Positions 15,429 to 23,421 of a stretch of 32,354 nt of DNA are shown here, in pieces (positions within the stretch are counted from its first letter, which is position 1; each line of letters begins with the position of its first letter). Under the pieces are notes generated by a model that saw only the letters and a program-made list of their open reading frames with translations, ran no database searches and was not told the DNA's origin. This stretch comes from Eubacteriales bacterium. GTDB lineage: Bacteria; Bacillota; Clostridia; Oscillospirales; Butyricicoccaceae. The stretch spans positions 1 through 32,354 of the forward strand of contig JAUNWG010000020.1 in the NCBI GenBank assembly GCA_030540435.1, written 5' to 3'. The translations under genes and the position numbers were made by a program.

Positions 15429-16706
15429 ATGCAAGTGGTAGATACCTTTGGCCGCTATGTTGAAAAATTCAGTGAAGATACGCCAAAACGGGCGCGCTGG
15501 CTGCTGAAAACCGGCTGGCAGGTACAGAAGCTCCGGCAAAAGGCGACAACAAATAAGTATTTGATCCCGGCTGACCGTTATCTGTCAAAGCTGATGATGG
15601 ATACCATGATTGCACCGTTGCAGAAGCCGGAAGATTCTGCCATTACCAGTATTTTTACCCCGTGCGAAATGTTGCATGAGGTTGGTTTGCATCCATATAA
15701 TGTGGAAGGGTTTTCCTGCTATCTGTCGGGTTCCCATGCTGAGCGCTCCTGCATTCAGCAGGCGGAAAATAGCGGCCTGTCTGAGACGCTGTGCAGCTAT
15801 CATAAGACCTTTATCGGCGCCGCGGAAAAGGGATTGCTGCCCAAGCCGAGATGCATTGTTTACACGAATCTGGCCTGCGATGCAAATTTGGTTACCTTCC
15901 GCCGCCTTGCGGAGCTGTTTGAGGTTCCGATTTTTTCGATTGATGTTCCGATGCAACAGAATGAGGATAACATTGCTTATGTAGCGGACCAGTTGCGTGC
16001 ATTGGCAGCATTTTTGCAGGAGCAGACAGGAAAAGAGATTTCGGAGGATGCACTGAAAAAGCGTGTGGAATGCTCCATACAGACAATAAAAAACTATGAG
16101 GTATTCCAGCACCGCCGTGCGTCAAAATATATCCCGGCAGATTTGGTCAGTCCGTTATATGCCGGTATGACAGGCAATCTCTTGCTTGGTACGGAGGAAG
16201 AGCGCAGATATACACAGATGTTGCTGCATGATGTGGAAAAAGCGCCTGCGGCAAAGGGCAAACGGATATACTGGATGCATACGATTCCGTATTGGTCCGA
16301 TGCTGTGGCAGATGTGCTCCGTTTTAGTGAAGAAGCGCAGATCGTCGGCTGTGAGCTGGCGCAGGCGTATCCGCATGATTTTCCATATGATCCGGACAAG
16401 CCGTTTGAAGCGATGGCGGCGAGAATGGTTTATCACTATATGAATGGCAACATTCTCCGCCGTATTGAAGCAGGTATCCGCCATGCAAAGGATGCCAATG
16501 CGGATGGAGTTGTCTGGTTTGCACATTGGGGCTGTAAACATACACTGGGCGGCGCACAGCTGGCAAAGAAAAAATTTGAGGAGGCTGGTATTCCGCTGCT
16601 GATTCTGGATGGCGATGGCTGTGACCGCAGCCATGGCGGTGAAGGGCAGACGGCAACACGCCTTGGCGCATTCCTTGAAATGTTGGGAGGTGCGGAGCAT
16701 GAATAA
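15429..16706 (+). CDS. 2-hydroxyacyl-CoA dehydratase-like subunit (HgdB/FldB/DCCP family)
   Basis: A 425-residue member of the HGD-D family (PF06050-type): Fe-S proteins that either eliminate water from 2-hydroxyacyl-CoA by ketyl-radical chemistry or, as double-cubane proteins, reduce small substrates. Visible features are the FTPCEMLHEVG motif (C79), the following FSCYLSGSH and C108, the C142-x7-C150 pair (RCIVYTNLACDAN), and the C-terminal WFAHWGCKHTLGGAQL. Several cysteines are available for a cluster, but which ones bind iron cannot be decided by eye. No CoA-transferase or acyl-CoA dehydrogenase gene is adjacent, so an amino-acid fermentation role (as in HgdAB, FldBC, HadBC) is not shown by context. 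It overlaps the next gene by 8 nt. Confidence 0.85.
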   Translation: MQVVDTFGRYVEKFSEDTPKRARWLLKTGWQVQKLRQKATTNKYLIPADRYLSKLMMDTMIAPLQKPEDSAITSIFTPCEMLHEVGLHPYNVEGFSCYLSGSHAERSCIQQAENSGLSETLCSYHKTFIGAAEKGLLPKPRCIVYTNLACDANLVTFRRLAELFEVPIFSIDVPMQQNEDNIAYVADQLRALAAFLQEQTGKEISEDALKKRVECSIQTIKNYEVFQHRRASKYIPADLVSPLYAGMTGNLLLGTEEERRYTQMLLHDVEKAPAAKGKRIYWMHTIPYWSDAVADVLRFSEEAQIVGCELAQAYPHDFPYDPDKPFEAMAARMVYHYMNGNILRRIEAGIRHAKDANADGVVWFAHWGCKHTLGGAQLAKKKFEEAGIPLLILDGDGCDRSHGGEGQTATRLGAFLEMLGGAEHE

Positions 16707-18357
16707 GACATATTATGTGTGTAAATATACGCCGATTGAACTGTTACAGGCATTTGGCGGCGAATGTGAAAATCTGAACGCGATGCCGGAGGGCTTTGAA
16801 CTGGCGGACCAGATCGCGCACCCGAATATTTGTGGCTTTGGCAAGGCGCTGTTGGAAGCAGTTATGAACGGTGAAGTCAAGGAGCTGGTACTGGTCAACT
16901 GCTGTGATACTATCCGCAGTGTATATGATGTATTGTATGCCAGCGGCAAGCTGGATTTTCTGTACATCATTGATATGCTGCACTGCGGCGATGCCTGCAG
17001 CCGGGAGCGCACAGCTGTCCAGCTCAAGGGTTTGGCACGTGCGTATGGCTCATATAAGGGAAAGGCATTCGATGAGACAAAATTCCGGGCAGCATTTGTC
17101 CCACCGGAGCGGGTAAAAGGGCCGCATCTGTCCGTGCTCGGCGCGCGTATGGGTACAGAGCTGTTTGATATGGTACAGGAGGCAATGCCGCTGCCGGTAG
17201 AAAATGACAGCTGTGTACACAACCGCTCGGTTGGCACAGTACCGCCGCCGGAAGGTCTGGATTTTAACGAGCTGATGGACTGGTATGCAGGCGAGCTGCT
17301 GCGACAGGTGCCGTGTATGCGCATGATGGATAACACCGGCAGAAAACAGCTGTACAATGACCCGGATTTGAAGGGCATTATCTATCATACGGTTAAGTTC
17401 TGTGACTTTTACAGTTTTGAATATGCAGATATCAAGCAGCACGCAAATTTGCCGCTGCTGAAAATTGAATCGGATTACACCGTACAGAGCAGCGGGCAGC
17501 TGCTGACGCGTCTGGAGGCATTTGCGGAGAGCATTGACCCGGCGCAGTATGAAGGAAAGGAAAAGAAGATGGGCAAGGGTTATTTTGCTGGCATCGACAG
17601 CGGCTCGACCAGCACGGATGTTGTCATTCTGAATAAGAACAAAGAAATTGTAACAGGAATCATCCTGCCGACCGGCGCAGGCGCGGCGATAGGTGCAGAG
17701 CGTGCGTTGGAAGAGGCACTCAAGGATGCAAAGCTCCAGCGCGAGGATATTGATGCGCTGGTTACGACCGGCTATGGACGCGGCGCGATCCAAGACGGTG
17801 ATAAGAGTATCACAGAGATCACCTGCCATGCCCGCGGCGCACATTATCTTGACCCGCAGGTGCGCACAGTAGTCGATATCGGTGGACAGGACAGCAAGGT
17901 CATTCGTATGGATGAAAACGGCGCAGTCGTTAATTTTGTTATGAACGACAAGTGTGCCGCCGGTACCGGACGTTTCCTTGAAATGATGGCCCGTACAATG
18001 GAAATGAGCCTCGACAAAATGAGCGTTACCGGTCTGCATTATGAGGAAGATATCACGATTTCCAGCATGTGCACTGTGTTCGCAGAGTCTGAGGTTGTTT
18101 CCTTGATCGCGCAGAACAAGGCGACGGATGATATTGTGCATGGCTTGAACAAGGCAGTTGCATCCAAGACCGCTTCGCTGGCGAAGCGTGTCGGTGGTGA
18201 AGAAAAGTATATGATGACTGGCGGTGTTTCCAAAAATAAGGGTCTGGTCAAGACACTGGAAGAAAAGCTGGGCGCTGAGCTGGTAATCAGCGACAAGGCG
18301 CAGCTCTGCGGTGCGCTGGGTGCGGCGCTGTTTGCAGCTGATATGGTAACGGAGTGA
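16699..18357 (+). CDS. Fusion: 2-hydroxyacyl-CoA dehydratase-like domain plus ATP-dependent activase
   Basis: A 552-residue two-part protein. Residues 1-285 resemble an HGD-D dehydratase subunit (C68-C69 in VLVNCCDTIRSVYDV, C96, C100), probably partner of the preceding protein. Residues 292-552 form the BadF/BadG/HgdC-type activase of the ASKHA fold: FAGIDSGSTSTD (phosphate 1), VDIGGQDSK (phosphate 2), MTGGVSKNKG (adenosine motif), and the [4Fe-4S] cysteines C419 (NDKCAAGTG) and C458 (SSMCTVFAESE). The activase drives one electron into the dehydratase at the cost of ATP. It is normally a separate homodimeric protein. ATG 16699 has GGGAGG 8 nt upstream and overlaps the previous gene by 8 nt; an in-frame ATG at 16609 lies deep in that gene and is rejected. 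An internal ATG at 17569 could also be used. Confidence 0.87.
   Translation: MNKTYYVCKYTPIELLQAFGGECENLNAMPEGFELADQIAHPNICGFGKALLEAVMNGEVKELVLVNCCDTIRSVYDVLYASGKLDFLYIIDMLHCGDACSRERTAVQLKGLARAYGSYKGKAFDETKFRAAFVPPERVKGPHLSVLGARMGTELFDMVQEAMPLPVENDSCVHNRSVGTVPPPEGLDFNELMDWYAGELLRQVPCMRMMDNTGRKQLYNDPDLKGIIYHTVKFCDFYSFEYADIKQHANLPLLKIESDYTVQSSGQLLTRLEAFAESIDPAQYEGKEKKMGKGYFAGIDSGSTSTDVVILNKNKEIVTGIILPTGAGAAIGAERALEEALKDAKLQREDIDALVTTGYGRGAIQDGDKSITEITCHARGAHYLDPQVRTVVDIGGQDSKVIRMDENGAVVNFVMNDKCAAGTGRFLEMMARTMEMSLDKMSVTGLHYEEDITISSMCTVFAESEVVSLIAQNKATDDIVHGLNKAVASKTASLAKRVGGEEKYMMTGGVSKNKGLVKTLEEKLGAELVISDKAQLCGALGAALFAADMVTE
17552..17571 (+). promoter_or_regulatory. Possible internal ribosome site at the activase junction
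   Basis: AAGGAAAGGA at 17552-17561 is about 8 nt before an in-frame ATG at 17569-17571, exactly where the activase domain begins (MGKGYFAGIDSGSTSTD). A free activase could be made from it in addition to the fusion. Confidence 0.4.
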
Positions 18358-21421: not shown

Positions 21422-21478
21422 TTGACAAAAATATTCGACAAATGTAGAATGTAAATATTACATTCGACAATTGTTAAA
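21422..21478 (+). promoter_or_regulatory. Promoter of the BlaI-type gene with overlapping operators
   Basis: TTGACA at 21422-21427 and TAGAAT at 21445-21450 with 17 bp between. Three inverted repeats lie over and after the -10: TTCGACAAATGTAGAA at 21434-21449 (near-perfect), GAATGTAAATATTACATTC at 21447-21465 (perfect 8-3-8), and TTCGACAATTGTTAAA at 21463-21478. The ACA-n2-TGT core resembles BlaI/MecI boxes. Autorepression is expected. Confidence 0.85.
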
Positions 21479-21493
21479 TATGGAGGCGATGCT

Positions 21494-21859
21494 ATGAAAA
21501 GATTACCGGACAGTGAGCTTGAGATCATGCTGGTCATATGGGAGGCGGAGGGCAGCGTAACATCCGACTACATTCTGGAACGCATCAACAGGGACTGGAC
21601 AAAAACCACGCTTTTGAACCTTTTGTCCCGTTTGTGCGGACGGGGATTTCTGGCATGCAGCAAGGAGGGGCGTCATAATATCTATACTCCGCTTGTAGAG
21701 AAAGAGGCATACTTACAGGCTGAAAGCCGCAGTTTTTTGAAAAGAATGTATCATAATTCGCTTACAAAACTGGTTATGTCTCTTTATGATGGAAAAAGTA
21801 TTTCTAAGGATGATTTGGCGGAGCTAAAGGAATTTATTGAGGAGGCAGAGGATGATTGA
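21494..21859 (+). CDS. BlaI/MecI/CopY-family transcriptional repressor
   Basis: A 121-residue winged-helix repressor. Residues 1-75 form the DNA-binding domain (LPDSELEIMLVIWEAEGSVT, the recognition helix WTKTTLLNLLSRLCGRGFL, and the wing), and the rest is the helical dimerisation part that is cleaved by the partner protease in the BlaR1/BlaI system. The recognition helix is TKTTLLNLLSRL, where BlaI usually has a TVxTLLxRLxxKG-like sequence, so the family call is firm. GGAGGCG lies 8 nt before the ATG. Operators over its promoter suggest autoregulation. The M56 protease gene starts inside its last codons. Confidence 0.92.
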   Translation: MKRLPDSELEIMLVIWEAEGSVTSDYILERINRDWTKTTLLNLLSRLCGRGFLACSKEGRHNIYTPLVEKEAYLQAESRSFLKRMYHNSLTKLVMSLYDGKSISKDDLAELKEFIEEAEDD

Positions 21860-22661
21860 TATACTTTTGGTTTCCCTTGCCGTGTCAGTGATTATTGTGT
21901 GCATGCTTCTCCTGTCTCCGCTGTTCAACCGGCGGTACAGCGCGGGCTGGCGGCGCTTTGTGTGGCTGATACTAGCTGTGCGGTTGTGTATCCCGATTCG
22001 GTTTGAACTGCCGTCTGCGCCCGTGCATATCCCGGTCAGGAACAGCGTGGTCGTACTGCCGACTGCCGATGCGCCGATAGAAATTGTTTCAGAAACAGAA
22101 GCTGCGCCCAATCCGGCACAGGAGGCGCAGATCGCAGATGAGAGCACCCAGACGCAGGATCAGAACAACGATGCGGCAACATCAATCAAGCTGGAAAACA
22201 TTATTTTTGCAATATGGGCAGCGGGCGCTGTGCTGTTCTTAGGCGTGCATTTTGGCAGCTATATCCTATTCAAACTGCGGGTACGACCGTATTGCAGACG
22301 GATCGAAACGAATATTTATCGGTGCAATCGGATTGAACACCCAATGATGATTGGCTTTTTCCGACCGACGATATTGCTGCCGGAAACCGATTATTCTGAC
22401 GCGGAATTGGATGTGATTTTGACACACGAGATGACACATTTTCAGCGGCATGATACATGGTACAAACTGGTGCTTTTGATTGCGAATGCGATGCATTGGT
22501 TCAATCCTCTGGTATATGTGATGGCGAATTGTGCAGACCGCGATCTGGAATATTCCTGCGATGACATTGTTGTGCGCGATAAGGACGCGACATTCAGAAA
22601 GCAATATTCCATGGTGATTTTAAAGACGATGGGAGGCAGACAAAATGACGAATTATGTTAA
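21852..22661 (+). CDS. M56-family metalloprotease (BlaR1/MecR1-like), probably N-terminal half of a split receptor
   Basis: A membrane zinc protease that in BlaR1/MecR1 receives a signal and inactivates the BlaI-type repressor. The 269-residue frame has an N-terminal membrane helix (residues 3-21), further hydrophobic segments at about 36-46 and 116-140, and the M56 core with HEMTH (H192, E193, H196) and the third ligand E233 in RDLEYSCDD. Full-length receptors continue into a further membrane helix and an outer sensor domain; here translation stops after TMGGRQNDELC. The missing part is encoded in the next frame, starting at 22645, which overlaps by 17 nt. ATG 21852 has GGAGG 6 nt upstream and overlaps the repressor gene by 8 nt. 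Confidence 0.85.
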   Translation: MIDILLVSLAVSVIIVCMLLLSPLFNRRYSAGWRRFVWLILAVRLCIPIRFELPSAPVHIPVRNSVVVLPTADAPIEIVSETEAAPNPAQEAQIADESTQTQDQNNDAATSIKLENIIFAIWAAGAVLFLGVHFGSYILFKLRVRPYCRRIETNIYRCNRIEHPMMIGFFRPTILLPETDYSDAELDVILTHEMTHFQRHDTWYKLVLLIANAMHWFNPLVYVMANCADRDLEYSCDDIVVRDKDATFRKQYSMVILKTMGGRQNDELC

Positions 22662-23421
22662 GCCGCCGCGGCTATCGACGTGTTTTTCCAAAGACGGCAA
22701 GCAGGCAAAAAAGCGGTTTGAAAATATCTTGCGCCCGGGCGCAAAGAAAACGGGGATTATCGCGTTGCTTATTGTGGTTGTTGTCGCTGCGGGAGCGGGG
22801 GTTCTGTTCACCTGTGACCGGGAACCGTCGCATACGCTCAGTGAAGAGCGTTTGTATAAATTGGGGATGGCGTCGATTGGAACTGATATAGCAGAACCTG
22901 TGTATGCGTCTGATGACAGGGCGATTTTCTATTACCGCTATGCGTTGGTCGTGTTCGACATGCGAGAAGGAAAAATAGAGCACATGGTGGATTTAGCCAC
23001 GCTGGATGTTCCGCTTAGCACGCAGGGGGAGGACATTATATATGTGAAAGCAACGGCAGACGGGAACGGCGTATACATTGGCTCTACAGATAGTTCCGTG
23101 GTGACGCAGTATGAGGATGAACGCGGATATTGGTATGATGTTGACCAGGACACGGTCAGTGAATATACCGGTACCGGCGATGAGGAATATTTTACACGGT
23201 TTGGACAAGTGGACACGGACAAGTGGACCAGCCGTTGTGTCAATATTTCGGAGAACAAGCGCTGTTATTTTCAATCTCCTTCTAACTTTTCGGGAGCACC
23301 CGCCGCAGGTATTGAGTTCGTTATTGAAGATAATGGGCAAACGACGCTATGGTATCCGTTCATGGATGAGAGCGTTGACGCGGAAGTGGAAGAGGAGGCA
23401 CTGCAACACATCGGACAATAA
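22645..23421 (+). CDS. Membrane-anchored sensor-like protein, probably C-terminal half of the M56 receptor
   Basis: A 258-residue protein. Residues 1-35 are a basic cytoplasmic segment (RLSTCFSKDGKQAKKRFENI) of the kind that follows the protease core in intact M56 receptors. Residues 37-56 form one membrane helix, and the remainder is an outer domain with beta-rich repeats (YALVVFDMREGKIEHMVDLA, EDIIYVKATADGNGVYIGS). There is no SxxK penicillin-binding motif, so it is not a beta-lactam sensor of the BlaR1 type. ATG 22645 has GGAGG at 22632-22636, 8 nt upstream and inside the protease gene, so separate translation is possible. The alternative is a frameshift in one gene. Confidence 0.75.
   Translation: MTNYVKPPRLSTCFSKDGKQAKKRFENILRPGAKKTGIIALLIVVVVAAGAGVLFTCDREPSHTLSEERLYKLGMASIGTDIAEPVYASDDRAIFYYRYALVVFDMREGKIEHMVDLATLDVPLSTQGEDIIYVKATADGNGVYIGSTDSSVVTQYEDERGYWYDVDQDTVSEYTGTGDEEYFTRFGQVDTDKWTSRCVNISENKRCYFQSPSNFSGAPAAGIEFVIEDNGQTTLWYPFMDESVDAEVEEEALQHIGQ

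Follow-up and report, generated by a model that had tools for sequence, protein, structure and literature searches.

The BlaR1 family of receptors switches on penicillin resistance in Staphylococcus, and BlaR1 signalling hinges on whether and how a loop, at which the receptor cuts itself, leaves the active site. The autocleavage takes place between Ser283 and Phe284, and the loop blocks the access of the repressor BlaI whether it is cut or uncut (PMC9834060). The helices alpha-9 and alpha-10 of BlaR1 are swapped onto the partner of a domain-swapped dimer, where Arg294' completes the active site (PMC9834060).

In this work we analysed an operon at 21422-23421 on the + strand of the window, by which we mean the whole stretch of 32,354 nucleotides. 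It consists of a promoter, two operators, a gene of a BlaI-type repressor, a gene of an M56 protease core and a separate sensor gene. In the initial annotation the unit was started at 21852; the receptor pair recognized there was confirmed, but the unit starts at 21422, since the promoter, the operators and the repressor gene precede the receptor. The following features were assigned.

21422..21450, + strand: sigma-70 type promoter of the operon, TTGACA-17-TAGAAT, matching 11 of 12 consensus positions
21434..21446, + strand: BlaI-type operator 1, TTCGACAAATGTA, within the promoter spacer, a location kept in relatives
21463..21475, + strand: BlaI-type operator 2, TTCGACAATTGTT, in nearly all relatives 25-29 bp downstream of operator 1
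21494..21859, + strand: BlaI/CopY-type repressor gene, 121 aa (Penicillinase_R, PF03965, E 1.8e-27)
21852..22661, + strand: protease core subunit of 269 aa, comprising the M56 zinc metalloprotease and its membrane helices (Peptidase_M56, PF05569, E 6.9e-44), ending after helix alpha-8
22425..22439, + strand: zinc/catalytic motif HEMTH, residues 192-196 (HExxH invariant in 14 split cores)
22548..22550, + strand: E233 (in EYSCD), third zinc ligand, invariant in split cores
22632..22636, + strand: ribosome-binding site GGAGG of the sensor gene, within the core gene, 8 nt before the sensor ATG
22645..23421, + strand: sensor subunit gene, 258 aa, with a homologous start and linker in relatives
22672..22716, + strand: segment LSTCF...R, sensor residues 10-24, equivalents of BlaR1 Leu280-Ser283/Phe284 (the scissile bond) and Arg294, from a phmmer alignment, PMC9834060 and the sensor census
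22741..22809, + strand: single membrane helix of the sensor, residues 33-55 (AlphaFold2 model)
22840..23418, + strand: outer domain of three four-stranded blades (half beta-propeller) and a C-terminal helix (AlphaFold2 pLDDT mostly over 90)

Repressor, operators and genomic context

The Penicillinase_R domain covers the repressor over its whole length (residues 6-117, 96.4 bits against a cut-off of 22.6), and the protein scored under the cut-off of every named NCBIfam equivalog. Comparison of the repressors placed the BlaI cleavage position (Asn101-Phe102) at the S-L of LVMSLYDG in the window protein. The repressor gene overlaps the core gene by 8 nt, and upstream of it the shared operator pattern TTCGACAAWTGTW occurs at 21434 and 21463; a BlaI-type repressor with operators at the promoter of the receptor operon is a feature of the BlaR1/MecR1 systems. 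The arrangement of promoter and operators was kept in 11 of the 12 loci of the closer relatives (group 1, see below) whose upstream region was examined; at the remaining one, L088, both operators were present and the promoter failed the strict pattern.

Across the 95%-complete genome no other convincing occurrence of the operator pattern was detected, a third exact match being situated in a coding frame. Since operators were found in this genome only before the operon, no output gene is known beyond the operon itself. The core at 21852-22661 was also the only M56 gene found in the genome. In eleven other genomes of the genus there was no match to the split receptor system at E 1e-10; it is apparently absent from them and is an accessory system, gained or lost.

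Elsewhere in the window, a T-box leader (605-858; RF00230, 116.8 bits) stands upstream of an amino-acid biosynthesis cluster including an aconitase-family gene, and two overlapping open reading frames (15429-16706 and 16609-18357) are of the 2-hydroxyglutaryl-CoA dehydratase type, the second of them carrying a BadF/BcrA ATPase-type activator domain in addition to its dehydratase-type part.

Two-gene receptors among the Clostridia

The initial annotation had read an M56 core with HEMTH and E233 that stops soon after the domain, followed by a second frame that shares 17 nt with it. GGAGG stands 8 nt ahead of the second ATG, and this frame opens with the cytoplasmic segment next to the core and continues into a membrane helix and an outer domain. 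All of this was borne out. The core runs from the ATG at 21852 to the end of its stop codon at 22661, terminates 36 residues past E233 and carries both HExxH and the downstream Glu of zinc metalloproteases. The sensor frame is +1 relative to the core, its first approximately 30 residues correspond to the segment that single-chain relatives have next to the M56 core, and the AlphaFold2 model places the helix and the outer domain after them. The predicted core fold matched BlaR1 with Z 17.6 over 228-238 residues, BlaR1 being the only match at E under 0.001. A model of the core with the sensor tail, built as one artificial read-through fusion chain which cannot show the binding of separate chains, superposed on BlaR1 through the autocleavage loop (model residues 1-286 on BlaR1 2-293, Z 17.6). 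In the predicted model the membrane and protease part has the BlaR1 fold.

The same arrangement, a short core followed by one to three sensor genes, was found in twenty further species of the class Clostridia, gut and rumen bacteria, on two separate branches of the core tree, and the sensor genes amount to 39, each with its own start. For group 1, a profile built from four split cores was run against 391 genomes of the class and gave short cores in G605, G633, G819, G604, G785, G646, G564 and G532; further members are genus g74 of family f19, locus L040 and two more genomes of genus g237, in which the split is kept in 7 of 8 genomes. This group contains 14 species including that of the window (families f1, f19, f36, f44, f76 and f78, and one of unknown family), with cores of 262-291 aa, the L040 core being cut off at the contig start. 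The best-scoring relatives of the window core are mostly short. In each group-1 locus the next open reading frame has its own ATG, mostly with a recognisable ribosome-binding site; the two genes overlap by 17, 11, 8 or 4 nt, or else 7, 14 or 69 nt separate them. Group 2, which surfaced while the outer domain of the window was traced, comprises seven species (families f30, f35, f43, f53 and f76) with cores of 275-302 aa; its sensor genes begin MLENLYTTKMS..KK.LQNRFSKIRSK after gaps of 2-17 nt, and their ribosome-binding sites are mostly strong. A phylum-wide sample contained no additional short cores at E 1e-60, and plasmid records contained no sensor relatives and distant M56 matches only. In the single-chain relatives there is no interruption: the core continues into the linker (LST.F..G...KKRF.NIL), which leads to a membrane helix and then to the outer domain. 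As to selection, in three close pairs the core had dN/dS values of 0.14-0.23 and seven sensor genes had values of 0.13-0.30 each, and by this measure both genes are under purifying selection.

It could be supposed that the window holds a single-chain receptor gene broken by a frameshift mutation or an assembly error, since the species is represented by one genome, in a fragmented assembly of 180 contigs, and a frameshift leaves just such overlapping frames. A true case was indeed met in G614 (contig C43, L083/L100, at 5386), where a single-chain M56 gene is frameshifted; in contrast to the split genes, the break there falls within helix alpha-9, and no start precedes the linker in the second frame. 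In the window the ATG with its GGAGG stands where twenty other species begin the sensor, in many cases after a clear gap or in a 4-nt ATGA overlap, and the core length (269 aa) is within the range of the other split cores. A frameshifted pseudogene should have single-chain relatives and no second start; we found a second start, split relatives and purifying selection in them. A broken gene is therefore very improbable. The receptor of the window is, as judged from its sequence and those of its relatives, a genuine two-gene M56 receptor of the BlaR1 type, and of the two readings initially offered, split receptor or frameshift, the first is upheld by the short cores and separately started sensor frames of 14 group-1 and 7 group-2 species. 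That one protease gene is followed in relatives by up to three different sensor genes likewise argues for a real split. It should be emphasized that such a gene pair readily passes for a frameshifted gene and is then labelled a pseudogene in annotations.

The initial annotation had proposed that the 17-nt overlap be sought in relatives. The split was kept there and the exact overlap was not: with overlaps of 20, 17, 11, 8 or 4 nt and gaps of 2-69 nt, the junctions vary from a 20-nt overlap to a 69-nt gap, in differing relative frames. This variation of spacing and frame argues for independent translation, and the separate translation initially considered possible is supported by the ATG and GGAGG of the second frame and by its start at a homologous place in twenty other species. 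The overlapping frames of the window would also suit programmed ribosomal frameshifting, yielding a full-length fusion besides the two proteins; but several relatives have stop codons and gaps of 2-69 nt, and in operons with two or three sensors this mechanism could not fuse every one of them to the core, so we regard it as extremely improbable.

The two groups belong to different supported clades with single chains between them, which means that at least two splits of the gene took place. Single-chain pairs are also scattered among the members of group 1 in the tree (2-4 changes; AU test for one clade, p 0.052), so further splits or re-fusions are possible. Two loci preserve relics: the core of L089 retains VLSTYLNGG of its own loop, and in L096 (1-420, G564) the core is followed in another frame by RKRLVHIL and a helix, its own alpha-9 and membrane helix, and then by a new sensor gene. 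These remnants suggest that the gain of separate sensors came before the loss of the core's own sensor half, and the L096 relic is possibly a fossil of how the split arose. One candidate intermediate, L113 (G763), where a linker-bearing frame follows a single-chain M56 gene, was rejected, the second frame being a decayed partial duplicate. Separately, a single-chain M56 gene in G673 (L099, 4968-4970) has an in-frame TGA between the membrane helix and the outer domain, with no new start nearby; this may be a nonsense mutation or a site of read-through.

The sensor tail and the outer domains

When a single-chain relative was aligned with BlaR1 (8exp) by phmmer, LSHSF corresponded to residues 280-284 and an Arg to residue 294. 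All 25 group-1 sensors have Phe at P1' (Phe284) and Arg ten residues further (Arg294), with Ser, Ala or Cys at P1, and the 14 sensors of group 2 all have Met at P1' and the Arg. The elements of the autocleavage loop, P4 Leu, a bulky P1' and the Arg294 equivalent, are thus present, but carried on the second protein. Since the loop residues are on the sensor, the core gene stops behind alpha-8, and only a few residues separate the start of the sensor from the scissile position; by this alignment the gene boundary is in the self-cut loop of BlaR1, just upstream of the scissile bond. With the boundary beside this bond, such receptors are in effect pre-cut, and the sensor half can be added, removed or swapped in an experiment.

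The window sensor matched no Pfam family. Its outer domain had initially been described as lacking SxxK, which is wrong, as one such string is present (SENK at residue 202). The conclusion drawn from it, that the sensor is not of the beta-lactam type, stands on other grounds: there was no match to a transpeptidase or beta-lactamase family, and the model is beta-propeller-like, not the class D beta-lactamase-like fold of a penicillin-binding domain. The model was built with 21 sequences, and its look-alikes in the PDB were all beta-propellers, weak ones, with Z up to 7.5 and no Foldseek E below 0.001. One may speculate from the model that two half-propellers could close a six-bladed ring in a dimer. 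Homologues of the outer domain make up the C-terminal portion in single-chain M56 receptors and also occur as free lipoprotein-like proteins. In L149, L152, L153 and L004 the half-propeller stands alone after apparent signal peptides, some of the lipoprotein type, without linker or protease. A lipobox-like sequence occurs in about half of the sensors, reading LFTC in that of the window, and for this reason lipidation is not claimed.

The initial annotation, considering one receptor of two subunits, missed what is most unusual here, namely the several sensor genes which follow one protease in relatives. In group 1 one sensor gene is present in the window, L088, L089 and L094, two in L092, L093, L101, L102 and L040, and three in L097, L105 and L106; two loci are cut by contig ends. 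Group-2 operons have one to three. Over their first 32 residues, sensors of the same operon share 69-100% identity, and their outer domains are mostly 21-32% identical, with one pair at 52%. This conservation of the linker and alpha-9 among paralogues, and not of the outer domains, is expected if the linker contacts a common core.

The outer domains of other sensors include LytR-CpsA-Psr (E 6.7e-19), DUF4825, DUF4362 and SH3-like domains, SLH and DUF4829 domains, and an M23 peptidase combined with a copper-amine-oxidase N-terminal domain (E down to 4.3e-31). The combination of M23 peptidase and copper-amine-oxidase N-terminal domains was seen in L163, L166 and L167, the second or third sensor genes of group-2 operons; a peptidoglycan-hydrolase-type domain is unusual on a receptor subunit of a BlaI system. 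Taken together, the M23, LytR-CpsA-Psr, SLH and SH3-like domains point to a signal that comes from the cell wall.

Proposed mechanism and comparison with known receptors

By analogy, the split receptor probably works like BlaR1. The sensor would be a one-helix membrane protein with its N-terminus inside, and its cytoplasmic tail (PPRLSTCF...KKRF) would dock on the core in trans, similarly to the alpha-9/alpha-10 unit in the BlaR1 dimer, laying the LSTC-F segment in the active site as a plug or a substrate. A signal at the half-propeller domain may move or release this plug; the freed core would then cut the BlaI-type repressor, probably at the S-L of LVMSLYDG, and the cut repressor would leave the two operators, raising the expression of the operon. 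We hold this whole explanation, a genuine split M56 receptor with a sensor tail docking in trans and a signal-released core cutting the repressor, with reasonably good confidence.

The sensor-like proteins might alternatively be effectors, that is, membrane-anchored cell-wall proteins co-regulated with the protease and perhaps cut in their tails, while the core senses alone. In other proteins some of the outer domains act as enzymes or bind the wall (M23 peptidase, LytR-CpsA-Psr, SLH), several of the proteins have a lipobox-like LVAC or LIAC at the end of the helix, and the core has an EL1-type loop of its own. Nevertheless, tail, helix and outer domain exactly replace the sensor half of single-chain relatives, the outer domain of the window recurs at the C-terminus of single-chain M56 receptors, and all copies keep Phe or Met at P1' and the Arg at +10, the residue which completes the active site of BlaR1 in the swapped dimer. 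We consider the effector role unlikely.

Where two or three sensor genes exist, the trans-docking receptor would have one core common to them. It is conceivable, and we propose it tentatively, that the receptor is modular: one protease hub with several interchangeable sensors, each bringing the displaced autocleavage loop in trans as its own inhibitory plug, so that several cell-wall signals converge on one repressor, a design evolved at least twice by a split in the same loop. Several sensors per protease, if true, would be a new way of combining envelope signals in Gram-positive bacteria.

Among known systems, the core is most closely related to the single-chain M56 receptors of Clostridia (for example L037, L090, L115, L125, L145-L148), which have the same linker and in some cases the same outer domain; unlike in the window, their chain is continuous across the junction. 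BlaR1 of Staphylococcus aureus (PDB 8EXP-8EXT; PMC9834060) shares with the window receptor the M56 gluzincin core fold (Z 17.6), the motif of P4 Leu, P1' Phe and Arg294, the single membrane helix followed by an outer domain, and the BlaI-type repressor in the operon. It is, however, a single polypeptide of about 600 aa and divides into two by autocleavage, whereas the window receptor is made from two open reading frames in different frames with their own starts; its outer domain is penicillin-binding and that of the window a half beta-propeller; and the split relatives have several sensors per core. The MecR1-MecI pair follows a similar receptor-repressor logic, and the NCBIfam MecR1 model reaches the window core with 43.9 bits against a cut-off of 1200; the differences are otherwise those listed for BlaR1. 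As the receptor is without two defining features of BlaR1/MecR1, the one chain and the penicillin-binding domain, it was not filed as BlaR1. With the BlaI/MecI/CopY repressors (PF03965) the window repressor has in common the whole-length domain match and operators of the form TTCGACAAxTGTA, and differs in having Ser-Leu in place of the Asn101-Phe102 site (N-F) of BlaI.

A split receptor acting on a BlaI repressor, it was held at first, would be a new arrangement; it is not unique to the window, and no description of a split M56 receptor was met in the literature searched, subscription journals being outside its coverage. The core and the repressor are members of known families.
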